This document shows, one piece after another, positions 1,174-15,604 of a DNA stretch of 30,615 bases. Position 1 is the stretch's first letter. Each line of letters opens with the position of its first letter. The notes under the pieces are model-generated. The model was given only the letters and a program-made list of their open reading frames with translations. It searched no databases and was not told where the DNA came from. The DNA is taken from positions 1 through 30,615 of the IMG/VR virus record IMGVR_UViG_3300006928_000045; one strand, given 5' to 3'. A program made the position numbers and the translations under genes. Origin of the DNA: a virus.

Positions 1174-1504
1174 TGAAAACTTAAAACATTTTGAAAAAGG
1201 ACAAAGCGGAAATCCTAAAGGCAGACCAAAAGGCAGTAAGAACCGCAGCACAATAGTTAAGGAAATATTAAACTTAATGGTGCAAGTAAAAGATGATGAA
1301 GGTAATGATAAATGGCAAAGCAATGAGTATCTAATAGTACAGGCAATGGTAAACAAAGCAATTGAAAAAGGTGATGTTGCTGCGTTCAATGCGTTGTATG
1401 ATAACCTATATGGCAAACTAAAGGATACTGTTGATATGAATACTACTGAAACAATAAACCACGATTTTAAAAAGCTAATTAGTGGAATTAAGTTTAAGCA
1501 GTAA
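1163..1504 (+). CDS. terS: Terminase small subunit-like protein (DUF5681-type)
   Basis: A 113-residue protein whose N-terminus, FEKGQSGNPKGRPKGSKN (residues 10-27), is the hallmark of DUF5681-type proteins found next to large terminases. The Arg/Gly/Lys-rich stretch suggests nucleic-acid binding. The rest is predicted helical (IVKEILNLMVQ; AMVNKAIEKGDVAAFNALYDNLYG). It ends 23 bp inside the large terminase gene, which supports the role of small subunit: recognising phage DNA and handing it to the packaging motor. The assignment rests on motif and synteny. Confidence 0.75.
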   Translation: MSNNENLKHFEKGQSGNPKGRPKGSKNRSTIVKEILNLMVQVKDDEGNDKWQSNEYLIVQAMVNKAIEKGDVAAFNALYDNLYGKLKDTVDMNTTETINHDFKKLISGIKFKQ

Positions 1505-2690
1505 ATACAGAGTATTCCATACATCAGATGCACGTTACTTTATTGTAACAGGCGGCAGGGGTTCAGGTAAATCATTTGCAATAAACACCATACTGTTAAT
1601 GCTTACCTATCAAGCAGGGCATACCATACTATTTACAAGATACACATTACGAGCAGCAGCCATTAGTATCATACCAGAATTTATTGAGAAGTTAGAATTG
1701 TTAAACGTTTCACAGGAGTTTAAAATAACACGTGATGAAATAATAAACAAAGGCAACGGAAGCAAAATAATATTTCGTGGGATTAAAACCTCATCAGGTG
1801 ATCAAACAGCTAATCTAAAATCATTGCAGGGTATCACTACTTGGGTTATGGATGAGGCAGAAGAATTAAACGATGAGGATATCTTTGATAAGATTGATTT
1901 AAGTGTACGTAACAAAGCACAGGATAATAGAGTGATACTAATATTGAATCCAACTACAAAAGAACATTTCATATATCAACGTTGGTTTGAATCACGCGGC
2001 ATTGAAGCAGGTGCAAACATAACTAAAGAAGATACATCATACATACACACTACCTACAAGGATAACATAGAGAATCTTTCACCAAGTTATATTAAGCAAA
2101 TAGAAACAATGCAGAAGCGCAGACCAGAACGCTACAAGCACACAATACTTGGTAGTTGGTTAGATAAAGCAGAGGGTGTTATATTTGATAATTGGATAGT
2201 AGGAGAATTTAAGCAGGTTGGCAAAATAGTATTTGGGCAGGATTACGGTTTCAGTAATGATCCAAGTACATTAGTAAAAACAAGCATAGATAAATCAAAC
2301 AAGGTTATATATGTGCAGCTATGTTTCTATCAACCTAAACTAACCACAAGTGAGATAGCAGTATTGAATAAAAAGTTTGCAGCTAATAACTTAATTGTTG
2401 GTGATAGTGCTGAACCACGTTTAATAACTGAACTGAGCGCACATTGTAATATAGTGCCTGCAATCAAAGGGCAAGGCAGCATTACATACGGTATTAGTTT
2501 ACTACAGGATTATGATTTAGTAATAGATCCAGAAAGCACAGATATAATAAAGGAGCTTAACAACTATTGTTGGTTAGAAAAGAAAAGCCAAACACCAGTA
2601 GATAATTTTAATCACGCACTTGATGCATTACGTTATGCAGTTAGTTATCAATTGCAGAATCCACATTTAGGTGAGTATCATTTATATTAA
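1482..2690 (+). CDS. terL: Terminase large subunit (packaging ATPase and nuclease)
   Basis: A 402-residue packaging motor of the PBSX/Terminase_3 kind. The ATPase has Walker A GGRGSGKS (24-31), Walker B WVMDEAEE (121-128, catalytic Glu125) and coupling motif LNPTT (155-159). The C-terminal RNase H-like nuclease has its acidic residues at Asp254 (GQDYG), Asp308 (GDSAEP) and Asp381 (HALDALRY). The protein pumps DNA into the prohead and cuts it. No ATG is available before the ATPase core, so GTG 1482 is the likely start, overlapping the small subunit by 23 bp. It is the last gene of the early transcript before a 432-bp noncoding region. Length is normal for the family. Confidence 0.95.
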   Translation: MELSLSSKYRVFHTSDARYFIVTGGRGSGKSFAINTILLMLTYQAGHTILFTRYTLRAAAISIIPEFIEKLELLNVSQEFKITRDEIINKGNGSKIIFRGIKTSSGDQTANLKSLQGITTWVMDEAEELNDEDIFDKIDLSVRNKAQDNRVILILNPTTKEHFIYQRWFESRGIEAGANITKEDTSYIHTTYKDNIENLSPSYIKQIETMQKRRPERYKHTILGSWLDKAEGVIFDNWIVGEFKQVGKIVFGQDYGFSNDPSTLVKTSIDKSNKVIYVQLCFYQPKLTTSEIAVLNKKFAANNLIVGDSAEPRLITELSAHCNIVPAIKGQGSITYGISLLQDYDLVIDPESTDIIKELNNYCWLEKKSQTPVDNFNHALDALRYAVSYQLQNPHLGEYHLY

Positions 2691-2784
2691 AATAAAACAA
2701 TTAATTAAGTATCTTAAGTTCATTGATAAAAAGAAAATGGAGTATATGATTAAAGCAGGCAGAGCAATGTTTTAATTGTAGCGT

Positions 2785-2843
2785 GGCTTAAGCCCTCCTT
2801 AAGCATTAAGATAAGAAAAGATAAAATAAGATATATATGCAAA
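2785..2843 (+). repeat. 59-bp stem-loop and AAGATAAG repeat, intergenic copy
   Basis: By eye this matches 27631-27689, inside the replication initiator gene, at 49 of 59 positions without gaps. It opens with a perfect 7-bp stem and 5-base loop (GCTTAAG, CCCTC, CTTAAGC at 2786-2804) and continues as a purine-rich run of AAGATAAG-like units, ending ATATGCAAA. The loop differs from the other copy while the stem is kept. Phage initiators often bind repeats in their own gene, so this is a candidate replication origin or initiator binding site. There is no T-run after the stem, so it is not an ordinary terminator. Confidence 0.6.
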
Positions 2844-2859
2844 AAAAGTTTAAAAAAGT

Positions 2860-2889
2860 TTTGTATTTAAATAATTATAATTATATTTG
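2860..2889 (+). promoter_or_regulatory. Bacteroidetes-type promoter for the noncoding RNA
   Basis: TTTG (2860-2863) and TATATTTG (2882-2889) are separated by 18 bases, a full match to the TTTG / TAnnTTTG promoter of Bacteroidetes. The spacer ends in the palindromic ATAATTATAATTA (2871-2883), which recurs in the same position relative to the -7 box of the early promoter at 24329-24341. It reads into a stretch without a plausible gene and with a terminator about 180 bp later. Confidence 0.7.
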
Positions 2890-2893
2890 AAAT

Positions 2894-3075
2894 ATGAAAA
2901 GTAGTTATTTAGCTTAAAGACGTTTAAGTTATCCAATTATTAACAAGTGTATTTTAATACAAAAACGGAGAATAAATAACGAAATAAGAAACATAAAACA
3001 AGAGGCAGCCGCGTCTTAGACAGCGTAAGTCCTCATAACATTAAAGAGCTATTCACTATGAGTAGCTTTTTTTTT
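2894..3075 (+). ncRNA. Candidate phage noncoding RNA, about 180 nt
   Basis: The stretch has a strong promoter in front and an intrinsic terminator at its end, with only a seven-codon frame (MKSSYLA, 2894-2917) inside. It can fold a small hairpin at 2948-2961 (TGTAT, TTTA, ATACA). It also has a more GC-rich nested stem at 3002-3034: GAGG with CCTC outside, then CGC with GCG and GTC with GAC around a UUA loop. GC content here is clearly above the AT-rich surroundings, which suggests a selected structure. It does not fit a tRNA. The 5' end is estimated from the promoter. A long leader RNA for the tail operon is an alternative if the terminator is read through. Confidence 0.5.
3043..3075 (+). terminator. 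Intrinsic terminator before the tail operon
   Basis: AAAGAGCTA (3043-3051) pairs with TAGCTTTTT (3063-3071) with one G-U pair, and a run of nine T (3067-3075) follows. The loop can form an extra TCA/TGA pair. It ends the candidate noncoding RNA and separates early from late transcription. Confidence 0.7.
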
Positions 3076-3081
3076 ATATTT

Positions 3082-3120
3082 GTGCATAACACTAAGCACT
3101 TTTTTTTACATTATATATAA
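3082..3120 (+). promoter_or_regulatory. Late-type hairpin/promoter module, copy 1 (tail operon)
   Basis: GCATAACACT (3084-3093), 13 bases, then TACATTA (3107-3113), followed by TATATAA just before ATG 3123. The same two blocks with the same 13-base gap occur before the scaffold gene at 11147-11176. The first block also lies in a hairpin, GTGC (3082-3085) with GCAC (3096-3099), followed by eight T, so it may act as terminator and promoter together. No TTTG box is found at the usual distance, so it is not a standard host promoter. A promoter for the phage sigma-like protein is the favoured reading. Confidence 0.55.
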
Positions 3121-3122
3121 CT

Positions 3123-3752
3123 ATGAAAGCACAAATTAAAGTACCAGAATCACTTGAAGAAATTACACTTAAGCAATACCAGAAGTGGTTAAAGATTTCA
3201 GAAGGCAAAGAACTTGATTCATTTTTACAACAAAAGATGATAGAGATATTTTGCAATGTACCGCTTAAAGAGGTGTTAACTATTAAAGTAAATTACGTTA
3301 ATCAAATATGTACAGCTATAGATGAATTGTTTAAAAAGCAACCTATGTTTATTAATAGGTTTAAATACAAAGGTGTACAATACGGCTTTATACCTAAACT
3401 GGATGATATTACATTTGGAGAATATGTTGATCTGGATACTTACCTTGCTGATTGGAGTTTAATGCATAAAGCAATGAGTGTATTATACAGGCGTATTAAT
3501 TTTGAAAAGGATAAAGAATACATTATTGATCCTTATGAAAGTGCAGAAGCATACGATTTGCAAAGCATAACTTTAGATATTGTATTTGGTGCGCTTGTTT
3601 TTTTTTACAATTTAAGCAACGAGTTACAGAATCGTATCCTGAATTATTTAGCGACACAGGAGGAAGTGGAACTGCCTCAAGATTTGAGGGCTTCAGTACT
3701 AAATGGGGATGGTATCAATCCATCTATGGATTATGCAAAGGGGATATTATGA
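3123..3752 (+). CDS. Tail assembly chaperone, zero-frame product (G-like)
   Basis: A 209-residue cytoplasmic protein, first gene of the tail operon. It has a mostly helical, charged N-terminus (LEEITLKQYQKWLKISEGKE) and a mid part FIPKLDDITFGEYVDLDTYL that I recognise from Bacteroidetes phage tail regions. The gene carries a T9 run at 3598-3606 with the in-phase heptamer T_TTT_TTT. Slipping back one base there enters a frame that is open to 3865. A short product plus a longer frameshifted product is the arrangement of the lambda gpG/gpGT tail chaperones that coat the tape measure before tail tube assembly. Unusually, the tape measure gene is 4.7 kb downstream rather than adjacent. Role inferred from frameshift architecture and context. 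Confidence 0.65.
   Translation: MKAQIKVPESLEEITLKQYQKWLKISEGKELDSFLQQKMIEIFCNVPLKEVLTIKVNYVNQICTAIDELFKKQPMFINRFKYKGVQYGFIPKLDDITFGEYVDLDTYLADWSLMHKAMSVLYRRINFEKDKEYIIDPYESAEAYDLQSITLDIVFGALVFFYNLSNELQNRILNYLATQEEVELPQDLRASVLNGDGINPSMDYAKGIL
3599..3605 (+). other. Programmed -1 ribosomal frameshift site (T_TTT_TTT)
   Basis: Within the run of nine T the zero-frame codons are GTT TTT TTT TAC, giving a canonical X_XXY_YYZ slippery heptamer. Before the slip the chaperone frame encodes ALVFF. After it, the -1 frame continues LQFKQRVTESYPELF and stays open for 86 residues to TGA 3863-3865. Both frames encode protein-like sequence after the slip, which argues against simple decay. A weak ACGA/TCGT stem (3619-3635) may help; no strong pseudoknot is evident. 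Confidence 0.65.
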
Positions 3753-3865
3753 AAATTGATGAGGTAACAAATATTAAACTACACACTTGTCTGATGCACT
3801 TATCATTTGAAAAAGATAAAGCAGAACTTGAACAACATATAATAAAGAGCAATGCAAAGAGATGA
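3605..3865 (+). CDS. Tail assembly chaperone, -1 frame extension (T-like domain)
   Basis: This 86-residue extension is reached by the frameshift at 3599-3605, making a fusion of about 247 residues. The segment TKWGWYQSIYGLCKGDIMKI followed by DEVTNIKLHTCLMHLSFEKDKAELEQ is well ordered and resembles C-termini of Bacteroidetes phage tail chaperones (W-x-W-Y, a GD turn, then a Cys/Leu helix and an EK-rich helix). Its last 38 codons also have their own ATG at 3749, overlapping the zero-frame stop as ATGA, so independent translation of a 38-residue peptide is possible. The frame before ATG 3749 is as protein-like as the part after it, which favours the fusion. It ends 14 bp into the next gene. Confidence 0.65.
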   Translation, partial: LQFKQRVTESYPELFSDTGGSGTASRFEGFSTKWGWYQSIYGLCKGDIMKIDEVTNIKLHTCLMHLSFEKDKAELEQHIIKSNAKR

Positions 3866-4118
3866 TATATTAAAAGAAATAATGGATCGCGAGATGTTTG
3901 GCAAGGATGAATATGTAATACTTGCTGATGGTTTTGAGGATGCGTTTTTAGGTGTTACAGCAGTTAAACCTGCTCGTGCAGTATATAGTTATTGGAAGTG
4001 TTTAGATATTATTATGAAACAAGATGATAGCGATTTTGATGAAGCACTTGATTGGTTAAATGAATTTATAGATGAAGAATTAGGAGAACACGCTCCATTA
4101 TATATTAAATTATTATGA
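3852..4118 (+). CDS. Small acidic protein in the tail operon, unknown
   Basis: An 88-residue protein overlapping the chaperone extension by 14 bp and the next gene by 4 bp (ATGA). It is acidic with aromatic clusters (AVYSYWKCLDIIMKQDDSDF) and an Asp/Glu-rich C-terminal helix. No signal peptide, membrane segment or recognised motif is visible. Tight coupling between tail genes suggests a virion assembly role, but the product could be an accessory chaperone or a minor structural protein. Confidence 0.75.
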   Translation: MQRDDILKEIMDREMFGKDEYVILADGFEDAFLGVTAVKPARAVYSYWKCLDIIMKQDDSDFDEALDWLNEFIDEELGEHAPLYIKLL

Positions 4119-4570
4119 AAAGTTTTTACAACGTAATAGATAAAATTAAAACGGTAGTTACAACAGAACCGTTTAACAATGAAATAACATTTGGTGATAT
4201 TGCTGATATTGATTTAAAGAAGCAGAGTTTGTTTCCATTGGCACACGTAATGATAAACAATGCCACAATAAACAACCAGTATGTAACAATGAACATTACA
4301 ATATTCTTTATGGATTTAGTAGATATTAGTAATGAGCAAACAACAGATTTATACAGGGGCAACGATAACAGGCAAGATATACTAAACACACAACTGGCAT
4401 TAGCCACAAGGGTAATAAGAGTATTGCAAAAAGCAGAGCCATACAGAGATGAGTTTGAATTGTTAACGGATGCAAGCTGTGAGCCATTTACAGAACGTTT
4501 TGATAATATGCTTGCAGGATGGGCAGTAACGTTTGATATAGGTGCAAAAGATGATATGACACATTGTTAA
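4115..4570 (+). CDS. Putative tail terminator or tail-completion protein
   Basis: A 151-residue protein with mixed strand and helix content. Features include NITIFFMDLVDISN in the middle, a conserved-looking helix (LNTQLALATRVIRVLQ) and a closing segment PFTERFDNMLAGWAVTFDIG. This pattern resembles tail terminator or neck proteins that lie next to HK97 gp10-like genes in Bacteroidetes phages. The next gene is exactly such a protein and starts on the last base of this stop codon (TAATG). The protein would cap the tail tube or join it to the head. Assignment by position and pattern only. Confidence 0.5.
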   Translation: MKSFYNVIDKIKTVVTTEPFNNEITFGDIADIDLKKQSLFPLAHVMINNATINNQYVTMNITIFFMDLVDISNEQTTDLYRGNDNRQDILNTQLALATRVIRVLQKAEPYRDEFELLTDASCEPFTERFDNMLAGWAVTFDIGAKDDMTHC

Positions 4571-5043
4571 TGAAAGAATTTGATAAGATATTAAAAAAGT
4601 ATGCTGATTACGTAATACGTGAATCAAGGAATAATTTAGTTAGGGGTAAAAACAATGCTTCACAAAGGTTATCTGATTCATTGGGTTACACTATCAAAGA
4701 TACAAGCGTTAAGTTTGAGGGCGAATATTATGGGCAGTTTGTAGATAAAGGTGTGCGAGGTGCTGAATCAACATATCCAGAAAGCGGAAGTTCTCCATTT
4801 AAATACACTAACAAAATGCCACCATCAAAAGCATTTGATAAGTGGACTGTTAGAAAAGGCATAGCACCAAGAGATAAGGAAGGCAAGTTTTTAAAAAGGC
4901 AATCATTAAATTTTTTAATAGCAAGAAGCATTTACAAAAAAGGAATTAGAGCAACATTGTTTTTTACAAAACCATTTGAAAAGGGGCAGGAGCTTTTTGG
5001 AGATGATTTTGCGGAAGCAGTAATAAAAGATAAATTAATATGA
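4570..5043 (+). CDS. HK97 gp10-like tail-completion protein
   Basis: A 157-residue basic protein. An N-terminal helix with Lys/Arg pairs is followed by GEYYGQFVDKGVRGAEST (about residues 51-68), which matches the Y-x-x-FV-x-x-G core of HK97 gp10/neck-type proteins. A Pro/Gly-rich loop and a C-terminal domain (FLIARSIYKKGIRATLFFTK) follow. Proteins of this type sit at the head-tail junction. ATG 4570 is preferred over TTG 4564 because it overlaps the previous stop as TAATG. The next gene overlaps by 4 bp. Confidence 0.7.
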   Translation: MKEFDKILKKYADYVIRESRNNLVRGKNNASQRLSDSLGYTIKDTSVKFEGEYYGQFVDKGVRGAESTYPESGSSPFKYTNKMPPSKAFDKWTVRKGIAPRDKEGKFLKRQSLNFLIARSIYKKGIRATLFFTKPFEKGQELFGDDFAEAVIKDKLI

Positions 5044-6176
5044 GTACAATAATAAGAACAAGATCACCATATTTTATAAGGACACCACAGGAAACGAATG
5101 TAAATTTAAATTACTTTCAAATAGTAATAACAGTTCACGGAGGGCTAACAGGTTCAGTTACAGTATGCGATGATTTGTATGCTACATATACATTACAGAA
5201 AAAACCATTACCAAACGAGGATTCAGTTTCTTTTGATATTAGTGAAATAGTTAACGATCATTTAATACAAACATTTAACGGCACATATTCTAATAGTGCA
5301 TTAACACAAGCAATTTGGGTTGATGTATCAACAACGGCAAGAGAATCTGATGGCACTATTATAGGGAGTGCAACAAACACTACATATCTTGCAAAGGAGG
5401 GTTATAATAAATTTAAAGAGGGCGTTAATTATGTAACAGAACCTACAAGCATGATGAGCGCGGATTATTTAGAATACCATAAAGGAAGTTATATAACACT
5501 ACCAATAAATGCAGAACGGGTTAATAGCTTAACATGGAAATTAAACAGTAGCACAATATCAACAGTTAGCTATACAGATAATGGTAATCAGAATCAAAAA
5601 ATAAAATATGGAACAGTAAACACAGCAGCACAAAGCTATGATGAGGTTGTAGTTACTTATGATACATCATCAACAAAATCTATTACACTAAAAGAAATAA
5701 GCGAATGTAAATATCCAGTAAATAAAATTACCTTTTTAAATAGGTGGGGCGCATTACAAGACATATTCTTTTTTAAAAAATCAATTGATAGTTTAGATAC
5801 AAGAGGCGAACAATTTAACAGGAGCATTTTTAAAGCAAGAAGCGTATCATTAGAGCCACCAGAAGAAGGGGAAGACTGTGAAGAAACAATTACATACAAT
5901 TCATATAGCACAACAGCACACGCAAAAAAAACATTTAATGTAAATGGGGTTGAATCAGTTTCTTTAAATAGTGGCTTTGTTAGTGAAACAGCTAATGTAT
6001 ATTTTGAGGAATTAATGGTTAGTGAATATATTTGGCTAACAGATTCAGATGCAGTTGTTTATCCTGTAACATTAAAAGATAGTTCATTTACTTATAAAAC
6101 AGGATTAAATGATAAGCTAATAAACTATACAATGAACTTTGAAAAAGCATTTGATTTAGCAAACAATATTAGATAA
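5040..6176 (+). CDS. Tail protein, probably distal tail or baseplate (378 aa)
   Basis: A large, strand-rich, Thr/Ser/Asn-rich protein without a signal peptide or membrane segment, as expected for a virion component. The segment ITFLNRWGALQDIFFFKKS (about residues 229-247) is a pattern I recognise from Bacteroidetes phage tail proteins of unknown function. The first 120 residues look like a tandem beta-sandwich. It overlaps both neighbours (ATGA before, TAATG after), and the next gene encodes an even larger virion protein, so the two probably form the tail tip together. A precise role cannot be read from the sequence. Confidence 0.65.
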   Translation: MSTIIRTRSPYFIRTPQETNVNLNYFQIVITVHGGLTGSVTVCDDLYATYTLQKKPLPNEDSVSFDISEIVNDHLIQTFNGTYSNSALTQAIWVDVSTTARESDGTIIGSATNTTYLAKEGYNKFKEGVNYVTEPTSMMSADYLEYHKGSYITLPINAERVNSLTWKLNSSTISTVSYTDNGNQNQKIKYGTVNTAAQSYDEVVVTYDTSSTKSITLKEISECKYPVNKITFLNRWGALQDIFFFKKSIDSLDTRGEQFNRSIFKARSVSLEPPEEGEDCEETITYNSYSTTAHAKKTFNVNGVESVSLNSGFVSETANVYFEELMVSEYIWLTDSDAVVYPVTLKDSSFTYKTGLNDKLINYTMNFEKAFDLANNIR

Positions 6177-8377
6177 TGCAAAAAGTAATATTATACATAC
6201 AGCCACAATTAAGAACTACTACAACGGTACAGGATTATGTGCGTGTTGATTTAATGGATGCAGATCTTATTGAACTTACACAGGTAATACAAGATGTAAA
6301 AAGCATTGATAAAGTATTTACGGATTACAGTAAAACATTTAATTTGCCTACAAGCAAAACAAATAACAAGATATTCAAATGGTGGTACAATCCAGATGTT
6401 GAAGGTTTTGATAATCAGATAATGGCTAATGCAAGAATTGAGTTGAATCATTTTGCATTTAAGGAGGGCAAAGTAAAACTTGAAAGCGTTACTATGAAAA
6501 ATGGCGAACCAAGTTTGTACAAGATAACCTTTTTTGGAAATACAATAAAATTAACTGATTTAATTGGAGAAGATAAACTTGAAAATTTAGTTTGGTTAAA
6601 TAACTTTAATCATGAAAATAGTAATGCTAATGTTAAAAGCGGATTAGAGGCGGGGTTAGATTTTACAGTTGGAGGTAGAGCTTATGCTGATGCTATTGTC
6701 TATCCATTGATTGCACACAGCCAACAATACATATATGATGCAACGGGGAATGGAAGTTCTGGATTAAATATTGCAGCAGTAAGCACACACCATACCAAAA
6801 GAGGTGTTTTCCCTGAAGATTTAAAACCTGCTATACTTGTAAAAAATATTATTAAGGCAATTGAAGAACAATATAACATAACTTTTAAAACTGGTGAATT
6901 TTTTAACAGTAATCATGTTGCCAATATGTATATGTGGTTACATAGGGTAAAAGGAAATATTGTTGCAGATAAATATAAACTTATTGATGATCAAGCATTT
7001 ACCTGCGCCTCATCAGGTTCTATATGTACACATTTTGCAAGTTCTGGAAATAATGTTTACTTTAATACATCAAAAGGTACATATACTTTTTATGATACTG
7101 AATCACAAGGGTTAGGTTTTCCAGAAAGTTTTGATTTTGGTGTTGAAATAGTTCCATCAACAGCAGATTTATATACTATTGAAGTTGTTGATATTTTAAC
7201 AGATACTGTTTATGCAGTTAGAGAAAATTGTAGTGGAACACAAACTTTAAATAGTTCATTTGGTAATGATTTAGCAACAAGAATACCAATAACAATAAAT
7301 CAAAATTTTGAACTTGCAGCAAGAGTAAAAACTCCGTCTGTTATGACATTTGCAGCAAATATTCAGATAGATCATAGGTATTATGATTATTCACTTGGCA
7401 GGCAAACAATATCAGGAACATATAATTCTAATTCTCTTGTTATTGCACTAATATCAGATATGGTGATTACTGAACAAATACCAGATATAAAGGTTCTTGA
7501 CTTTCTTAATGGTATGTTTAAGATGTTTAATTTAACGGCATATTTAAATTTTACTGATGAAATAGTTGTTAAAAGGTTAGATGATTATTTTAGTAGTGGT
7601 CAAACACATGATATAACTGAATATATAAAAATTGGTACACATACAGTAGGAACTACAATACCATATAGCGAAATAGATTTAGAATATGCAGAACCAAAAA
7701 GCATATTAGCACAAAGGTTTTTAAATACTAATAACAGAAAGTATGGTGAAGTGGAATATAAAACTGATATTACTGATAATAAAACATATAAAGTTACTGC
7801 ACCATTTGAACACATGCTTTATAGTAGATTAAATGATTTAACGGCAGGAACATTTACTGATGTGCAAACAGGTTGTTTTTTAGATGAAGAATTAAAATCA
7901 AGTATTGGTCAACCATTATTATTTTATGGCATACAAAGAACGGGAATAACCACAGAAATAAATTTTGTATACACTACAAGACCAGAAACTTATGGAGCTT
8001 TAGCAGGCACACCTGGCACTAATTATTATTTGGATGCATATTGGATGCCACACCATGCTAATGAATTAGGCAGCGTAGGTACAGCGCCCACATATAATCT
8101 CAACTTTGGTAGTGAAATAGATACTTATAACTTAACAGATTATTCAGGACAAAACAATTCATTATTCTTAAAAAACTATCAAGAATACATAACAAGAATA
8201 TATAATAAAAAAACAAGATTATATAAATACAGCGCAATACTACCATTAAAAATATTATTACAACTAACATTAGATGATAAGGTAATAGTAGGAACAAGAA
8301 TATTTACAATAAATAAAATGAGCAGCAAACTACAAAGTGGAGAAACAGAATTTGAACTATTAAACGAAGCACCATAA
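6176..8377 (+). CDS. Large tail-tip/baseplate protein (733 aa)
   Basis: The second largest structural gene of the tail operon. The N-terminus is a compact domain (YVRVDLMDADLIELTQVIQD, then SKTFNLPTSKTNNKIFKWW) that I associate with Bacteroidetes phage tail proteins upstream of or near the tape measure. The middle is Ser/Thr-rich beta structure, and the C-terminus (ILPLKILLQLTLDDKVIVGT) resembles hub or baseplate domains. No enzyme motif is seen. Position between the 378-residue tail protein and the tape measure supports a tail hub or tip role, which is inference. Confidence 0.65.
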   Translation: MQKVILYIQPQLRTTTTVQDYVRVDLMDADLIELTQVIQDVKSIDKVFTDYSKTFNLPTSKTNNKIFKWWYNPDVEGFDNQIMANARIELNHFAFKEGKVKLESVTMKNGEPSLYKITFFGNTIKLTDLIGEDKLENLVWLNNFNHENSNANVKSGLEAGLDFTVGGRAYADAIVYPLIAHSQQYIYDATGNGSSGLNIAAVSTHHTKRGVFPEDLKPAILVKNIIKAIEEQYNITFKTGEFFNSNHVANMYMWLHRVKGNIVADKYKLIDDQAFTCASSGSICTHFASSGNNVYFNTSKGTYTFYDTESQGLGFPESFDFGVEIVPSTADLYTIEVVDILTDTVYAVRENCSGTQTLNSSFGNDLATRIPITINQNFELAARVKTPSVMTFAANIQIDHRYYDYSLGRQTISGTYNSNSLVIALISDMVITEQIPDIKVLDFLNGMFKMFNLTAYLNFTDEIVVKRLDDYFSSGQTHDITEYIKIGTHTVGTTIPYSEIDLEYAEPKSILAQRFLNTNNRKYGEVEYKTDITDNKTYKVTAPFEHMLYSRLNDLTAGTFTDVQTGCFLDEELKSSIGQPLLFYGIQRTGITTEINFVYTTRPETYGALAGTPGTNYYLDAYWMPHHANELGSVGTAPTYNLNFGSEIDTYNLTDYSGQNNSLFLKNYQEYITRIYNKKTRLYKYSAILPLKILLQLTLDDKVIVGTRIFTINKMSSKLQSGETEFELLNEAP

Positions 8378-8532
8378 TGAAAACAATTTTAGAAGCATTA
8401 GAGTTTTGTAAAGAAAATAAATTATATGGAAAACATATAAATATAGCATTAGGCAAAAATAAATTTGTACAAACTTGGGAAGAAGGAGAAACACAAAATA
8501 AGATAAAAGAATATGAAAACATTTACAGTTGA
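8377..8532 (+). CDS. Small protein before the tape measure (51 aa)
   Basis: A 51-residue frame (starting MKTILEALEFCKENKLYGKH) that begins on the last base of the previous stop and ends 20 bp inside the tape measure gene. Both junctions match the coupling style of this genome, and the sequence is a plausible soluble helix-strand unit with a conserved-looking TWEEGETQ. No family is recognised. Its position suggests an accessory tail assembly factor, but that is inference. Confidence 0.6.
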   Translation: MKTILEALEFCKENKLYGKHINIALGKNKFVQTWEEGETQNKIKEYENIYS

Positions 8533-10396
8533 GCTTGAGGTAGGTACTAAAAAGGCAATAAAAAACATTGGCGATCTTGAAGATGAAATTGAAAGATTAT
8601 CAAACGAGCTAAAAGGCGCAGATTTTGGTAGTGATGAATTTAAAAAATTATCAACTGAATTAATAAAGGCGCAAAAACAAATTAAAAACACAGAGCTATC
8701 ACTTGAATCATTAGATTCTGAACAGGTTGCAAGTGAGTTTGGAAGTGTTGTTGGTGCTGTTGGTGATATGACTGGCGCAATGGTGTTGCTTGGGGGTACT
8801 GGTGGAGCTGTTGAGCAAACTGCTGAAAACATAGAAAAAGCAATTGGTATTTCAATGGCGTTTAAAGGAGCTATTGAAGGGGTTTCATCTGGTATGAAAT
8901 TATTTAACAACATTGTTAAAACAAACACGTTATTACAAAAAGCTAATAATACTATTAATGTACTTGCCGCAGGAACATTTAAAGTATTAGGATTTTCTGT
9001 TGATACAACATCTGTTGCATTTAAAGGGTTAAGAGCCGCAATGATTGCTACAGGGATTGGTGCTTTAATAGTTGGTGTTGGTTTATTAATTGCAAACTTT
9101 GATAAATTAAAAGCTGCAATGACAGGAATAAGCGAGGCACAACGCGAAAGAACTGATTCAGCACAGAAAGCAGTAGAAGCAGCAGATAAGGAATATGAAC
9201 TTTCTAAATTACAAATAAACAATTTAAAATTACAGGGTAAAACAGAGGAACAGATTGTTAAGTTTCAGATGAAAGCTCTACAAACAAGATTAAATGCACA
9301 GGTAGCATTAATTAAGGAACAGAAAAAATTAAATGCTGAACAATTAGAGGGAACAACAAGTTGGAATGAATCTTTAGCCACTACAATAGAATGGTACGGA
9401 AAAATAATTGGCTTTATTCCAAGAGGAATAGCATTTGCAATTGAATTTTTAACAGGACAGATAAATGATGTGTTTGCACAAATACAAGATACTACTGTTG
9501 GAAAATATTTATTTGGCGATGAGAAAATAAACATACAACTTGAAACTGGTACTGCTTTAGATAAAGGTATTGAAGATCTTTCAGGTTGGATAGCTGAATT
9601 AGTTTTTGATCCTGAAGCTGTTAAGGAAGAAGGAGATAAAGAACTTGAAGCATTAGAATTAGCAAATCAACAAATGTTAAGTGAGATGGCAGGGCTTCAA
9701 TTAAATTTAGAGGGCATTCAAAAAGAAAATTCAAAAGTAGCAAAATCAATAACTGCTGGAAATATTGATTCAAATAATAAATTAGTTGAAAACACTAAAA
9801 GCACTTTAAGCGTATTGCAAGATACTTGGGCAGAATACTATAAAAAACAAAGAGAGCAGCGGGAAAAAGATTTAGCAAATGAAATAGCTATAATGAATGC
9901 AAGACACCAATTACAGGATGCATACGTTTCCGCAACCTCATCAGCTTTGCAAAGTATTGCAGAACTTGCAGGGGAAGGAACAAAAATAGCCAAAGCAGCA
10001 GCGTTATCAGATATTATTATTACAACTGGAGTTGGTTTTGCACAAGGTTTGGATATTGCACAAAAATCAGCAAAAGGAACTGGTGTAGCAGCAGCAGCAG
10101 CATTCCCCCTATTTTACGCAACACAAATAGCAGCCGTTTTAGCTATGGTTGTAAAGGCAAAAAATATTTTATCAAAGGTAAAAGCAGGCCCATCTCCATC
10201 ATTATCAACACCTGCGCCAGGCGTTGGCGGTGCAGGTTCACAAGCACCACAATTTAATATAGTGGGGCAAAGCGGATTTAATCAAATAGCATCAGCATTA
10301 GGGCAACAGCCACCAGTACAGGCGTATGTAGTAGCGCAAGATGTTACAACAGCACAACAATTACAAAACAATACAATACAAACAGCAACTTTTTAA
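8513..10396 (+). CDS. Tape measure protein
   Basis: A 627-residue protein with the usual tape measure make-up: a charged coiled-coil N-terminus (IGDLEDEIERLSNELKGADF), a Gly/Ala-rich middle, a hydrophobic stretch AAMIATGIGALIVGVGLLIA (about 176-195), a long helical part, and a second Ala/Gly-rich hydrophobic stretch near 500-545. The C-terminus is Pro/Gln-rich. It sets tail length and is ejected ahead of the DNA, where the hydrophobic stretches can enter the host inner membrane. At the usual 0.15 nm per residue the tail would be about 94 nm. No lytic domain is visible. It is separated from the tail tube gene by the head genes, an uncommon order. Confidence 0.9.
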   Translation: MKTFTVELEVGTKKAIKNIGDLEDEIERLSNELKGADFGSDEFKKLSTELIKAQKQIKNTELSLESLDSEQVASEFGSVVGAVGDMTGAMVLLGGTGGAVEQTAENIEKAIGISMAFKGAIEGVSSGMKLFNNIVKTNTLLQKANNTINVLAAGTFKVLGFSVDTTSVAFKGLRAAMIATGIGALIVGVGLLIANFDKLKAAMTGISEAQRERTDSAQKAVEAADKEYELSKLQINNLKLQGKTEEQIVKFQMKALQTRLNAQVALIKEQKKLNAEQLEGTTSWNESLATTIEWYGKIIGFIPRGIAFAIEFLTGQINDVFAQIQDTTVGKYLFGDEKINIQLETGTALDKGIEDLSGWIAELVFDPEAVKEEGDKELEALELANQQMLSEMAGLQLNLEGIQKENSKVAKSITAGNIDSNNKLVENTKSTLSVLQDTWAEYYKKQREQREKDLANEIAIMNARHQLQDAYVSATSSALQSIAELAGEGTKIAKAAALSDIIITTGVGFAQGLDIAQKSAKGTGVAAAAAFPLFYATQIAAVLAMVVKAKNILSKVKAGPSPSLSTPAPGVGGAGSQAPQFNIVGQSGFNQIASALGQQPPVQAYVVAQDVTTAQQLQNNTIQTATF

Positions 10397-10407
10397 AATA
10401 AAACAAA

Positions 10408-10995
10408 ATGGAAATAGTAGAATTATTATTGGATGAAGAAAACGAGGTTACTGGCATAGATGCCGTATCTATCGTAGAATCACCTGCAATTGAAAGCGAT
10501 TTCATTGCATTAGCAGAGCAAGAAGTGAAACTTGCAAAAGTAGATGAAGATAAAAGGATCTTAATGGGCGCTGCCTTGATACCTAACAAACCAATCTTCC
10601 GTAAAAATGGCGAAGAAATGTTTTACGTGTACTTTTCAAAAGATACAGTACGCAGAGCAAGCGAGTTATTTTTTATGAATGGTAATCAAAACAATGCAAC
10701 ACTTGAACACAGTATGAATATTAACGATCTAACGGTTGTTGAATCTTGGATTGTTGAAGATACTAAAATGGATAAAACTGCTAAATACGGGTTAGATGTT
10801 CCAGATGGCACTTGGATGATCAGTATGAAAGTAGAAAACGATGAGGTTTGGAACGATTACGTAAAAAGCGGAAAAGTAAAAGGATTCAGTATTGAAGGAT
10901 ATTTCGCGGATAAAGCAAAGATTAAGAAATCTGAAGAAATGAGTGAAGAAGCAGCACAAAAGAAAATTGAAGAAATTGTAAACTTATTAAAATGA
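10408..10995 (+). CDS. Prohead protease, XkdF-like
   Basis: A 195-residue protein matching the phage XkdF serine protease pattern: VESPAIESDF near residues 23-32, then GAALIPNKPIFR, a His in LEHSMN (His101), VESWIVEDTKMD (111-122) and a Ser in GFSIEGYF (Ser161). His and Ser would be catalytic in the herpesvirus-assemblin-like fold used to mature proheads. The C-terminal EEMSEEAAQKKIEEIVNLLK is a coiled helix that may act as a targeting tail. It precedes a scaffold and a capsid gene, the normal assembly set, but a terminator/promoter module separates them. Confidence 0.8.
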   Translation: MEIVELLLDEENEVTGIDAVSIVESPAIESDFIALAEQEVKLAKVDEDKRILMGAALIPNKPIFRKNGEEMFYVYFSKDTVRRASELFFMNGNQNNATLEHSMNINDLTVVESWIVEDTKMDKTAKYGLDVPDGTWMISMKVENDEVWNDYVKSGKVKGFSIEGYFADKAKIKKSEEMSEEAAQKKIEEIVNLLK

Positions 10996-11129
10996 AAAAG
11001 AAATATAAAACTCCAAGCAACTCATCGCCTAAAAACAGTAATAGAGGATGTTTATGTGCAGATGGCAAAAGATACAGTACTAAATGCTGCGATGGCAGCT
11101 TACAAGCACAAGGAATAGGTAAAGTGTAA
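10992..11129 (+). CDS. Cysteine-rich microprotein (45 aa)
   Basis: A 45-residue basic peptide that starts as ATGA on the protease stop. After a Lys-rich start it has GCLCADGKRYSTKCCDGSLQ, with four cysteines as C-x-C (20, 22) and CC (32, 33), then AQGIGKV. I recognise similar short C-x-C...CC-DGS...QGIG proteins in Bacteroidetes phages, so a real gene is likely despite the size. The cysteines could bind zinc or form disulfides. A hairpin terminator follows 12 bp later. Function unknown. Confidence 0.75.
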   Translation: MKKKYKTPSNSSPKNSNRGCLCADGKRYSTKCCDGSLQAQGIGKV

Positions 11130-11140
11130 AATTTTTTTGC

Positions 11141-11170
11141 AAAAACGCATAACACTTAACGTTTTTTTTT
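11141..11170 (+). terminator. Intrinsic terminator after the tail operon
   Basis: AAAAACG (11141-11147) pairs with CGTTTTT (11160-11166) around a 12-base loop, and the T-run continues to 11170. It closes the operon that ends at 11129. It overlaps the second promoter module, whose GCATAACACT block starts in the stem and fills most of the loop. Confidence 0.65.
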
Positions 11171-11190
11171 ACATTAAGTATATATAATAA
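11147..11190 (+). promoter_or_regulatory. Late-type hairpin/promoter module, copy 2 (head operon)
   Basis: GCATAACACT (11147-11156), 13 bases, then TACATTA (11170-11176) and a TATATAATAATAA stretch before ATG 11198. This repeats the layout at 3084-3113 exactly in spacing. The flanking stems differ but still pair (GT with AC in copy 1, AC with GT in copy 2), which looks like covariation. Copies lead the tail and head operons only. Best read as a phage-specific late promoter fused to a terminator. Confidence 0.55.
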
Positions 11191-11197
11191 TAACATT

Positions 11198-11788
11198 ATG
11201 AAAGCAAACGAAATACTAAACAAAATCAAAAATATTGTTGGTGTTGAACTTTCTGAAACCAAAACAGAATTAGCTGAAATCGTACTTGAGAATGGTACTG
11301 TACTTGTTGCAGAATCATTTGAAGCAGGAAAAGCAATCTTCATTAAAACAGAAGAAGAAGAAATTGCATTGCCTGTTGGTGAGTATGAATACGAAGGTAA
11401 AGTTCTTGTGGTTAAAGAAGAAGGTTTAATTGACAGTATCAAAGAGGCGGAAGCAGAGGCTGAAGCTGAAGAAGAAGCGGAAACTGAAGAAGTAGAAGCT
11501 AAAGAAGAAGTTCAATTTGTAAGCGTAGAACAATTTAATTCTACCATTGAAGAACTTAAAGCATTAATTACAGAGTTAAAAAGTGAAACTGAACTATCTG
11601 AAGAAACTAAAGAAGAAACAGAAGAAGAAGAAGTTGTTACTGAATTAGCTGCTGTAAAAGAAGAATTGGTTGCTCCAATTAAACACAATCCAGAAGAAAT
11701 GCAAAACTCAAACACAGGTAGAAAAATAGCACCTAAAAGAGAACGCACAATAATGGATAGTGTATTTTCAAAAATTTCAAATAAATAA
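11198..11788 (+). CDS. Putative scaffold protein (acidic)
   Basis: A 196-residue, strongly acidic protein directly before the major capsid gene. Residues 1-80 look folded (VLENGTVLVAESFEAGKAIF, GEYEYEGKVLVVKEEG). Residues 83-155 are runs of Glu/Ala and coiled coil, and the tail is basic (GRKIAPKRERTIMDSVFSKI). An acidic coiled coil with a basic C-terminal capsid-binding end is typical for scaffolds. Repetitive GAAGAA codons make this an area of low DNA complexity. Scaffold function is inferred from charge pattern and position next to protease and capsid. Confidence 0.65.
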   Translation: MKANEILNKIKNIVGVELSETKTELAEIVLENGTVLVAESFEAGKAIFIKTEEEEIALPVGEYEYEGKVLVVKEEGLIDSIKEAEAEAEAEEEAETEEVEAKEEVQFVSVEQFNSTIEELKALITELKSETELSEETKEETEEEEVVTELAAVKEELVAPIKHNPEEMQNSNTGRKIAPKRERTIMDSVFSKISNK

Positions 11789-11812
11789 TATTAATAATAA
11801 AAAACAAAAAAA

Positions 11813-12745
11813 ATGGCAAATACTGTAACGGGTAGTACTTATGCTGGTGAGTTCGCTGGAGATTATGTAGCAGCAGCTTTATTGAGTGCGCCTACTTTAG
11901 AAAAAGGGTTAATTACTATTTTACCTAACATTCACTATAAAAGAGTGATGAAAAAAATTAGTACAACTGGAAGTGCATTGGTTGATGCAACTTGTGATTT
12001 TGATCACAATATGGATGTTGATGTTGCTGAAAGAGTTTTAACTCTTGAAGAATTTCAATCTAACGTTCAATTATGTAAGAAAGATTATCACCAAGATTGG
12101 ATTGGTGCGCAAGCAGGTTATTCAGCTTACGAAGATCTTCCAAGTAACTTTAAAGATTTTATGATTGGTCACGTTGCTGGAATGGTAGCAGCCAAAATGG
12201 AAACTAACATTTGGGAAGGCGCTAACGCATCTTCAGGACAGTTTGATGGTTTAGTAACTTTAGCTTTAGCTGATGCATCTGTAAACGATGTAGGATCTCA
12301 CGCTGCTGTAACAGCTACTAACGTAATTGATAAACTTGGTTCTATAGTTGACCTAATCCCGTCAACTCTTTACGGATCTGAATCATTAAAAATATTTGTT
12401 TCTCAAAATATTGCAAAAGCATACGTGAGAGCATTAGGTGGTTTTGTTGCTACAATAGGTGGTGCAGGTACAGAAAACAAAGGAACGCAATGGTATGCTA
12501 ACGGATCACTATCTTTTGATGGTATTCCAGTTGTTGTTGCTAACGGTATGGCAGATGATACTGCGATAGCTGCTGAAAGTTCAAATTTATTCTTTGGATG
12601 TGGTTTACTTTCTGATATTAATCAAGAAGTTAAGTACATTGATATGAGCGAAGTTGATGGTTCTCAAAATTGCAGAATCATAATGAGAATGAGCGCAGGT
12701 GTACAATATGCAATTGGTTCAGACATCGTTCTTTACCACGCGTAA
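11813..12745 (+). CDS. Major capsid protein
   Basis: A 310-residue HK97-fold-type capsid protein. It has a short N-arm (GSTYAGEFAGDYVAAALLSA), an E-loop/P-domain region with KKISTTGSALVDATCDF, a long spine-helix region (FKDFMIGHVAGMVAAKMETN) and a C-terminal A-domain with KIFVSQNIAKAYVRALGG and FDGIPVVVANGMADDT, a common capsid pattern. The leader is A-rich with no Shine-Dalgarno site, as in strongly expressed Bacteroidetes genes. A strong terminator follows after 16 bp. There is no long N-terminal delta domain, in keeping with a separate scaffold. Capsid identity rests on pattern and context. Confidence 0.85.
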   Translation: MANTVTGSTYAGEFAGDYVAAALLSAPTLEKGLITILPNIHYKRVMKKISTTGSALVDATCDFDHNMDVDVAERVLTLEEFQSNVQLCKKDYHQDWIGAQAGYSAYEDLPSNFKDFMIGHVAGMVAAKMETNIWEGANASSGQFDGLVTLALADASVNDVGSHAAVTATNVIDKLGSIVDLIPSTLYGSESLKIFVSQNIAKAYVRALGGFVATIGGAGTENKGTQWYANGSLSFDGIPVVVANGMADDTAIAAESSNLFFGCGLLSDINQEVKYIDMSEVDGSQNCRIIMRMSAGVQYAIGSDIVLYHA

Positions 12746-12761
12746 GAAATTAATTAATAAT

Positions 12762-12787
12762 GGAGGGTTGTAATTACCCTCCTTTTT
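12762..12787 (+). terminator. Intrinsic terminator after the capsid gene
   Basis: GGAGGGT (12762-12768) pairs with ACCCTCC (12776-12782) around a 7-base loop, followed by five T. It lies between the capsid and tail tube genes and should set the capsid level by partial termination. Confidence 0.85.
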
Positions 12788-12799
12788 AAAACTTTAACA

Positions 12800-13348
12800 A
12801 TGGCTTGTGATTTAACAATTGGGCGTAAGGTACCTTGTAAAGATGTGGTTGGTGGTTTAGTTAGATGTTGGTTTGTAAACTATGGTGGTTTAGGAAACAA
12901 TGCAAAAACAAACGATGAAATCACTGATCTTTCAGGAACATTTACTGCCTTTCAATACGAACTAAAGGGTACGAACTCTTTAGATCAAACCATTACCTCA
13001 TCAAGAGAGAATGGAACTACATTTGCAGAGCAAACGTTAACTTTAACTTTTCCTAAAATGGAAAAAGAATTTCATAAGGAATTGAAGTTAATGGCTTACG
13101 GTAGACCTCACGTAGCAGTAGAGGACAGAAACGGTAATTTCTTCCAGTGCGGTTTAGAACACGGAATGGAGATTACTACTATTGCTGTTGCAAATGGTAC
13201 TGCAATGGGTGATTTAAGTGGATACACATTAACATTAAGTGGCATGGAAACTGATCCTGCTAACTTTATTGCTGGTGGTACATCTGCTGATCCTTATGCA
13301 GCAATGAGTTCAGCAACAGTTACTGTAACTGTAGGAACTAATAGCTAA
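12800..13348 (+). CDS. Major tail tube protein (putative)
   Basis: A 182-residue beta-rich protein. It starts MACDLTIGRKVPCKDVVGGL and ends with the segment DLSGYTLTLSGMETDPANFI, a pattern of Bacteroidetes phage tail tube-type proteins, plus a Ser/Thr/Val-rich tail. The segment EDRNGNFFQCGLEHGMEIT resembles the tube-protein core strand pair. It lies between two strong terminators, a layout expected for a very abundant structural protein. No promoter is evident in the 54-bp gap, so it probably relies on read-through from the head operon. Moderately confident of tail tube identity. Confidence 0.65.
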   Translation: MACDLTIGRKVPCKDVVGGLVRCWFVNYGGLGNNAKTNDEITDLSGTFTAFQYELKGTNSLDQTITSSRENGTTFAEQTLTLTFPKMEKEFHKELKLMAYGRPHVAVEDRNGNFFQCGLEHGMEITTIAVANGTAMGDLSGYTLTLSGMETDPANFIAGGTSADPYAAMSSATVTVTVGTNS

Positions 13349-13392
13349 CATAATTCATAATTGTGTGATTCATAATATATAGTTTGATTGGT

Positions 13393-13425
13393 GGGGAGGA
13401 AGTAGTTATCCTCCCCTTTTTTTTT
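13393..13425 (+). terminator. Strong intrinsic terminator after the tail tube gene
   Basis: GGGGAGGA (13393-13400) pairs perfectly with TCCTCCCC (13409-13416) around an 8-base loop, followed by nine T. It is the most stable terminator in the genome. The preceding 44 bp hold two TTCATAAT copies of unknown meaning. Confidence 0.9.
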
Positions 13426-13443
13426 AAATTATTTTGATACGAT

Positions 13444-13800
13444 ATGCAAATACTTACAACGACAGGAACAAGAGTAATAAATTTTATACCACGCGAAATA
13501 ATAAGCGGTGCAAAAACATATCAACTAATTATCAAATCTGAAGCACAGAATAAAATTATTTTAACAGATAGTACAGCTACATTTGTAGAATTAGATTATT
13601 TTTACACTTATACAACAACACAGGCATTGGTAGAAAACAATTTTTATACTATTACAATAACCAACACAACGGATAACACAATTATTTTTAAAGATAAAAT
13701 GTATTGCAGCGATCAAACGTTATCAGATTATGAAATTAGTAATGGTGTATATATAGAACAAAGCACAGGAGATAATCAATTTATATATTACAATGGATAA
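13444..13800 (+). CDS. Small beta-rich virion protein before the portal
   Basis: A 118-residue protein that looks like a single beta-sandwich (YQLIIKSEAQNKIILTDS, FYTITITNTTDNTIIFKDKM) and ends with TGDNQFIYYNG. This ending and its position directly before the portal match a small family I know from Bacteroidetes phages. It overlaps the portal gene by 8 bp. It could be a head decoration or tail protein. No enzymatic or membrane features are seen. Confidence 0.7.
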   Translation: MQILTTTGTRVINFIPREIISGAKTYQLIIKSEAQNKIILTDSTATFVELDYFYTYTTTQALVENNFYTITITNTTDNTIIFKDKMYCSDQTLSDYEISNGVYIEQSTGDNQFIYYNG

Positions 13801-15604
13801 TTTACACTTAATACAATTAGGACAATACGAACGACCAACGGTAGTTGAAGAAAGAAACAAGGATTGGGTTGGTATTGGCGATAACAATGATTATTATCAA
13901 TGCTTAATTGATGCTTATATGGATAGTACAACAAACAATGCTGTTATTAATGGTGTTGTTAATTGTATTTATGGGAAAGGTATTGATGCAACGGATTCAA
14001 GCAGAAAGCCAGAGCAATATGCACAAATGCGATCTTTATTAAAACCTAAAGATTTACGCAGAGTTTGTCAAGATTTAAAACTATTAGGCGAAGCATCTTT
14101 TCAAATTACTTACAATAAGGATAAGATAGCAAGCATAACACATTTTCCACGTGAAACATTACGAGCTGAAAAAATGGATGATGAAGGTAACGTTAAGCAT
14201 TATTTCTATGCGCCTGATTGGAGTAAAGTTACCAAAAGCACAAAATTAAAAAAGTTTCCTGTATTTGGAAGCGGTGCTAAAAACGAAATTTATATAATTA
14301 AAAGATACGTAACAGGTTTCTACTATTATTCTCCTGCGGATTGGGGTACAAGTTATCCTACTTTAGAAAAGGAGATTGCAGATTATTTAATAAATGATGC
14401 ACAATCATCTTTTAGTGGTACGAAGGTTATCAATTTTAACAATGGCGTGCCAGATCGTGAGAAGCAATTATCAATTAAAAATGATGTTTTAGGCAAGTTA
14501 ACGGGTAGCTACGGAGAAAAAGTGATTGTTGCATTCAACAACAATGCAGAAAGCAAAACAACAGTTGAGGATGTACCCTTAAATGATGCACCTGCACACT
14601 ATGAATATTTATCTACAGAATGCCAACGTAAGATACAGGTAATGCACCGCGTGACATCGCCATTATTAATTGGCTTACGTGATGGTAATAGTTCACTTGG
14701 CAGCAATGCAGATGAGATTAAAAATGCAAATTTATTATTTAATAACGTTGTTATTCAACCGTATCAAGATTTAATAATTGATTCGTTAGATGAAATATTT
14801 GCTTACAATGATATTAGTTTAAATCTATATTTTAAAACACTTGAGCCGCTTGAGTTTATGGATTTAGATAGTTTTGATAACGAAGAACAAAAAGAAGAAG
14901 AAACAGGGATTAAAAACGAAGATACAGAGCTTGAAATAATGGCTTCTAAAACAAAAAACAATGATATACCTGAAGAAGTATATAATGCAGTATTAGAAGG
15001 GCTTAAAGGCGAAGCAATGGGATCTGAATGGGAGATTGCTGATATAAGAGATTACAATGAAGAAAACACAAGCGCAGAAGAATGGGCTAACGATGTTATT
15101 CATTTAGCAAAAGAACCAAAAGCAGATACACCTATAAAAAATATACCAGAAAAAGGATCAACACTTGATAAATCTTATTATGCTGTAAGATACAAGTATG
15201 ATGTAGGTACAGCAAGAGGAAGTGGAGGAAGTTCAAGACCATTCTGCCAATCTTTAATGAGCAGAACAAGACAAGGAGTTGTTTATAGGATAGAAGATAT
15301 TAATAAAGCAATGATTGATAAATCTTTGTTCATAAAATACGATTTACCTATGCACAAAAATCAAACCTTTGATTTGTTTAAATTTAAGGGCGGAATTAAC
15401 TGTAGGCATATTTGGAAGGAAGTATTATATAAAATGAAAATACAACCTGCTTTAGAAGGCAAAAAAGGCAGTAGTGATTTAGGAGATTATAAGAATGTAG
15501 ATAAAATACCTAAAAGTTATAAACCAACGCCAAGAGGGCATAAAAGAGCTGCGAAAGCAGAACGAACAAGAAGTGATAGAGGAGCATATCCAACAAGTAA
15601 ATAA
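13793..15604 (+). CDS. Portal protein with C-terminal minor-head extension
   Basis: A 603-residue protein. Residues 1 to about 375 have portal features: an early NNAVINGVVNCIYGKGI segment, the wing/stem region with FPRETLRAEKMDDEGNVKHY, and the crown part CQRKIQVMHRVTSPLLIGLR with a stem helix ending in EIFAYND. An acidic linker (EEQKEEETGIKNEDTELEI) leads to a separate C-terminal domain with KGGINCRHIWKEVLYK (about 531-546), a motif that in other phages closes minor-head (MuF-like) domains. The portal forms the dodecameric DNA gate. The extra domain would lie inside or at the head vertex. It is longer than a plain portal and may be a fusion. The tail is basic. Confidence 0.8.
   Translation: MDNLHLIQLGQYERPTVVEERNKDWVGIGDNNDYYQCLIDAYMDSTTNNAVINGVVNCIYGKGIDATDSSRKPEQYAQMRSLLKPKDLRRVCQDLKLLGEASFQITYNKDKIASITHFPRETLRAEKMDDEGNVKHYFYAPDWSKVTKSTKLKKFPVFGSGAKNEIYIIKRYVTGFYYYSPADWGTSYPTLEKEIADYLINDAQSSFSGTKVINFNNGVPDREKQLSIKNDVLGKLTGSYGEKVIVAFNNNAESKTTVEDVPLNDAPAHYEYLSTECQRKIQVMHRVTSPLLIGLRDGNSSLGSNADEIKNANLLFNNVVIQPYQDLIIDSLDEIFAYNDISLNLYFKTLEPLEFMDLDSFDNEEQKEEETGIKNEDTELEIMASKTKNNDIPEEVYNAVLEGLKGEAMGSEWEIADIRDYNEENTSAEEWANDVIHLAKEPKADTPIKNIPEKGSTLDKSYYAVRYKYDVGTARGSGGSSRPFCQSLMSRTRQGVVYRIEDINKAMIDKSLFIKYDLPMHKNQTFDLFKFKGGINCRHIWKEVLYKMKIQPALEGKKGSSDLGDYKNVDKIPKSYKPTPRGHKRAAKAERTRSDRGAYPTSK

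Follow-up and report, generated by a model that had tools for sequence, protein, structure and literature searches.

A conserved T9 run joining two overlapping reading frames in a putative tail assembly chaperone gene of a tailed phage

Organization of the locus

The window, i.e. the whole stretch of DNA analysed here (30,615 nucleotides), belongs to a tailed phage and corresponds to a 30.6-kb IMG/VR record. The gene in question comes directly after the terminase gene (1482-2690), and its zero-frame ORF (3123-3752, plus strand) encodes a G-like product of 209 amino acids, residues 1-161 of which are common to both predicted products. The zero-frame protein was assigned to phrog_32199 (function unknown) with an E value of 3.5e-14, and its searches returned no named family from Pfam or NCBIfam and nothing useful from solved structures. 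The AlphaFold2 model of this protein had a mean pLDDT of 81.5, with low confidence at residues 194-209. Further downstream, the tape measure protein (8513-10396, plus strand; phrog_24676 tail length tape measure protein, E 2.4e-15), an XkdF-like protease (10408-10995), the capsid (11813-12745; phrog_1623 virion structural protein together with a sub-threshold Pfam capsid match) and the portal (13793-15604) are encoded. The structural gene order from 1482 to 15604 is unusual, being terminase, frameshift gene, tail-like genes, tape measure, protease, capsid, putative tube protein (12800-13348) and portal.

A run of nine T (T9) is located at 3598-3606 (plus strand) within the zero-frame codons GTT TTT TTT TAC (3597-3608), and the heptamer T_TTT_TTT at 3599-3605 stands in register with the zero frame where the overlap begins, in keeping with the X_XXY_YYZ pattern of slip sites. 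The -1 frame is open from stop to stop at 3539-3865 and, read onward from the slip at 3605-3865 (plus strand; 86 codons and the stop codon), gives LQFKQRVTESYPELFSDTGGSGTASRFEGFSTKWGWYQSIYGLCKGDIMKIDEVTNIKLHTCLMHLSFEKDKAELEQHIIKSNAKR, which is homologous to the C-terminal part of the single-ORF relatives described below and was modelled alone by AlphaFold2 as helical (pLDDT 69.5). The predicted fusion, join(3123..3605,3605..3865), would consist of zero-frame residues 1-161 followed by these 86. The nine T, their register, the open -1 frame up to 3865 and the arithmetic of two predicted products of 209 and 247 residues (161 + 86 = 247), all given in a preliminary description of this DNA, were thus borne out.

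In synonymous-codon shuffles, runs of at least nine T inside some gene were expected 1.4 times over all genes; one was seen, and a T9 in a gene, taken alone, is not rare in this AT-rich window. The chance of an open -1 frame across the 48-codon overlap was about 0.0024. Other runs of eight or nine T were found at 3067-3075, 3100-3107, 11162-11170 and 13417-13425, all of them intergenic and shortly upstream of the start codons at 3123, 11198 and 13444, and these are possible terminator or leader elements. A run of nine A at 691-699, near the end of ORF 188-715 and just before the start of an overlapping +1-frame ORF (705-1094), might be a second slippage site or a chance occurrence.

Conservation of both frames and single-ORF relatives

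The zero-frame protein and the -1 tail were each used as query to collect homologs and returned largely the same contigs; a further scan, with the protein of phage P12024L, added members at 25-33% identity to that protein. Profiles of both parts were run on all loci, and the loci carrying both parts gave 152 distinct sequences, many of them closely related (41 clusters below 80% identity). The second ORF lies in the -1 frame in 152/152, and every one of them has T_TTT_TTT in register at the junction (T9 in 147, T10 in 5), at the identical codon pair in 149 and one codon upstream in three. Since all distinct homologs retain both the -1 ORF and the in-register heptamer, the observation lies far beyond chance, and the homolog alignment proposed as a check in the preliminary description thus found the T run and both frames conserved throughout. 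The cultured Nonlabens phages P12024L and P12024S, in which the gene is annotated as two hypothetical proteins, are among the 152, and the slip is kept as well in a Flavobacteriaceae MAG contig (L160), the sole match of one contig scan. W-G-W-Y is invariant across 37 diverse members. The length of the fusion varies little and that of the zero-frame tail, much shorter in P12024L and in locus L163, varies far more, and this points to the fusion as the product whose end is defined. The 55-aa family phrog_38404 (P12024L_41, L158:6525-6692), the ATG of which overlaps the zero-frame stop, appears to be the last part of the -1 tail, annotated as a gene in its own right.

Differences at the three codon positions were 0.211, 0.120 and 0.422 upstream (zero frame), 0.254, 0.140 and 0.266 in the overlap (-1 frame) and 0.212, 0.121 and 0.341 downstream (-1 frame), respectively. 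Because third-position freedom is reduced in the overlap (3606-3749, plus strand; both frames open) and the -1 order of constraint is retained there, the substitution pattern shows dual coding with the -1 frame dominant. The most conserved -1 motif, KWGWYQ, is encoded by the same DNA (3701-3718, plus strand) as the conserved zero-frame N-G-D-G-I-N. In view of the -1 dominance, this sharing of NGDGIN with KWGWYQ, the low-confidence end of the zero-frame model and the short tails of P12024L and L163, the zero-frame tail itself may matter little.

Single-ORF relatives were reached by Foldseek against BFVD, which led to Flavobacterium phage 6H and from there to further phages. Single-ORF proteins of 293-301 aa were found in the Duneviridae (FPSV-F7, 23T, laban6-1 and Ingeline) and others in Leef_1 (259 aa) and a Microcystis phage (274 aa); the distant single-ORF relatives as a whole belong to Duneviridae and Helgolandviridae, plus the Microcystis phage. 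Scans of IMG/VR with these relatives found almost nothing further. The fusion profile aligned with them over its full length (residues 2-247, E 5.9e-13), whereas the alignment of the zero-frame profile ended at residue 124; the -1 tail alone aligned at the expected place (p 0.0018), and the zero-frame tail gave no alignment with them (p 0.73). In laban, Ingeline and the Microcystis phage the junction encodes LFF by TTA/TTG/CTG, then TTT TTT, then G, and holds T6 only, without the slip heptamer. Judged by these alignments, the single-ORF relatives read in one frame what the slip-site family would read via a -1 shift, and we regard this homology as the strongest evidence that the predicted fusion is a genuine product. 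In phage 6H itself (KC959568, L224:10352-10927), the relative is interrupted and has 191 aa in place of 293: a segment of about 50 bases differs from FPSV-F7 and 23T and is two bases longer, so that the frame ends early; this is either a real variant or an error of the record.

The readings that dispense with a frame change have to be set against this evidence. A homopolymer sequencing or assembly error, with the gene truly in one continuous frame, was named as the main rival in the preliminary description; T9 is error-prone in some methods and single-ORF relatives exist, but the same run and frame relation recur in 152 distinct sequences from many samples, two cultured phage genomes included, and both frames are constrained in the overlap. 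An identical error would be needed in every record, so that this reading is effectively refuted, with practically no probability left to it. Separate translation of the -1 ORF, through internal initiation or reinitiation at the ATG at 3749, is suggested by the ATGA at 3749-3752, in which the ATG overlaps the zero-frame stop in the window, and by the annotation of the -1 ORF as its own gene in P12024L. This ATG is not conserved, however, and in the window the -1 reading opens at the slip with a TTA codon; the tail is conserved right from the slip onward, including KWGWY, which precedes the ATG. The slip run, too, is conserved, and in the relatives the tail is part of one continuous protein. An independent start was ruled out by the unconserved ATG and the TTA codon, and its probability is very small. 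A -1 change joining two conserved coding frames, as proposed in the preliminary description, is strongly supported by the 152/152 homologs, the dual coding and the single-ORF alignments. The two frames, the conserved slip site, the dual coding and the homology of the -1 tail to the single-frame tails were established by sequence comparison, and on this footing the frame change taken by itself is nearly certain.

Ribosomal or transcriptional slippage

Slippage of RNA polymerase on T9, with one U added (or two lost), would lead into the -1 frame as well and yield the same two products. For ribosomal slippage seven T in register are required, and the T run is never below nine in the 152 sequences; transcriptional slippage goes with an A/T homopolymer of some nine nucleotides or more where the frame changes, and T9 or T10 is present there in 152/152. 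The preceding codon encodes V, I, L or F and the following one Y, W or C, so that the first and last T of the run are explicable by the encoded residues, which counts against transcriptional slippage. A change of T to C in the A-site codon would alter neither protein (zero frame, Phe; -1 frame, Leu, TTA/TTG to CTA/CTG), and yet TTC was found there in only 2/151, both with a T10 run extending one codon further upstream, as compared with 12-42% at eight other conserved Phe columns. The TTC deficit among the 41 cluster representatives gave Fisher p values of 0.005 (A-site codon) and 7e-6 (both slip codons), respectively, the clustering lowering relatedness in these tests and not removing it. For RNA structure downstream, the mean z was about 0 at 40, 60 and 100 nt in the 41 representatives and z was +0.93 in the window, and a downstream hairpin was rejected, none standing above shuffles in either. 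Stimulatory RNA structures downstream are common in genes with programmed -1 frameshifting and are not obligatory.

The constant run of at least nine T, the near absence of A-site TTC and the lack of downstream structure fit slippage of the polymerase as well. UUY codons, as a class, shift well in E. coli (PMC4066793), and a purely ribosomal site might therefore tolerate C. T runs longer than eight have been reported for transcriptional slippage, e.g. in Shigella mxiE, with thresholds near nine A/T (PMC1088944; PMC3711429). The ribosome was nevertheless kept ahead, since the tail chaperone shifts known so far are ribosomal (PMC5009743) and UUU may simply outslip UUC on the ribosome in these hosts, and it is somewhat more probably the ribosome than RNA polymerase that slips. 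Production of the two proteins by polymerase slippage is a possible, less probable course. More tentative still is the fuller proposal that polymerase slippage on the conserved T9 makes both tail chaperone forms, the run occupying the old LFF motif that holds T6 in the single-frame relatives; the ratio of the two forms would then be set at transcription. T9 offers a clean case for telling ribosomal from transcriptional slippage.

Putative tail chaperone role and comparison with known systems

In tailed phages, the pairing of a short protein with a -1-extended form is characteristic of tail assembly chaperones (PMC5009743). The gene has this G/GT layout at the sequence level, with predicted products of 209 and 247 aa and an N-terminal domain in common, and the layout is conserved. 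Foldseek against BFVD gave a weak match to a 'Tail assembly chaperone protein' (ctCpR1, E 0.026, prob 0.97), and Foldseek and VIA-align against PDB gave weak helical matches only, with no tail chaperone among those listed; a chaperone fold may nonetheless be present. Lambda GT scored no better against the fusion profile than shuffled sequence. The chaperone gene immediately precedes the tape measure gene in lambda and HK97, whereas the present gene adjoins the terminase gene, five genes before the tape measure. A location between the tail tube and tape measure genes is usual for chaperones, not universal, and since the structural and tail genes of this genome are in unusual order generally, gene position is weak evidence here.

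The lack of sequence similarity to lambda GT and of a solved-structure match, together with the position beside the terminase rather than immediately before the tape measure, would fit a real frame-shifted pair that is some other structural or assembly protein in two forms. The layout typical of tail chaperones (PMC5009743), the weak fold match to a protein so named, the place of the Ingeline single-ORF relative between adaptor and tape measure genes and the small weight of position in an unusual tail gene order argue against it, and such a pair is unlikely. A chaperone role is likely on the strength of the G/GT layout, the presence of a tape measure gene and the one weak fold match; if the gene encodes a tail assembly chaperone, the tape measure protein (8513-10396) is its expected client. 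Of the tail chaperone frameshift in the preliminary description, the frame change accordingly stands, and the chaperone label is likely by architecture, genome context and the weak Foldseek match.

In the explanation proposed here, the gene would make two nested proteins with residues 1-161 in common. Most translation would remain in the zero frame and give the 209-aa protein, and a minority, presumably at a low programmed rate, would shift by -1 at T9 and give the 247-aa protein, the 48-residue zero-frame tail being swapped for an 86-residue, mostly helical tail with the KWGWY motif. On the model of lambda gpG/gpGT, the two proteins would most likely be tail assembly chaperones, the common domain binding the tape measure protein and the less abundant, extended product recruiting the tail tube protein. 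The fusion, a ribosomal shift and the chaperone role jointly are only a little better than an even prospect, and the preliminary interpretation as a whole is partly supported.

The frameshift gene is an unannotated one of known kind. In the open-access literature on tail chaperone frameshifting in flavobacterial or Bacteroidetes phages, or on transcriptional slippage in tail assembly, the frameshifted family (phrog_32199/phrog_38404) was found unreported, which is not proof of novelty. Two families of 'unknown function', widespread among phage contigs from metagenomes and found also in cultured phages of flavobacteria, are explained as one frameshifted gene and linked to the single-ORF phrog_25418 of cultured Bacteroidota phages. 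Because some phages read this gene in a single frame and others by way of a slip, the benefit of a two-form system can be tested directly.

Among known systems, lambda gpG/gpGT and HK97 gp13/gp14 are alike in having a short protein and a rarer -1-extended form, with a slippery heptamer towards the 3' end of the first ORF, and lambda, HK97 and the window phage are all tailed phages with a tape measure gene. The present gene differs in its heptamer (T_TTT_TTT within T9, as against G_GGA_AAG in lambda), in the lack of detectable sequence similarity to lambda GT and in its place next to the terminase rather than immediately before the tape measure gene. Shigella mxiE (T run) and Thermus dnaX (A9) resemble it in that the frame changes on a homopolymer of about nine (PMC1088944; PMC3711429), and differ in that a canonical ribosomal heptamer is also in register here, where transcriptional slippage is a candidate only. 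The phrog_25418 proteins (function unknown) of Duneviridae, Helgolandviridae and Microcystis phages share full-length homology with the predicted 247-aa fusion, tail included, and differ in their one continuous frame, three of them encoding LFF with T6.
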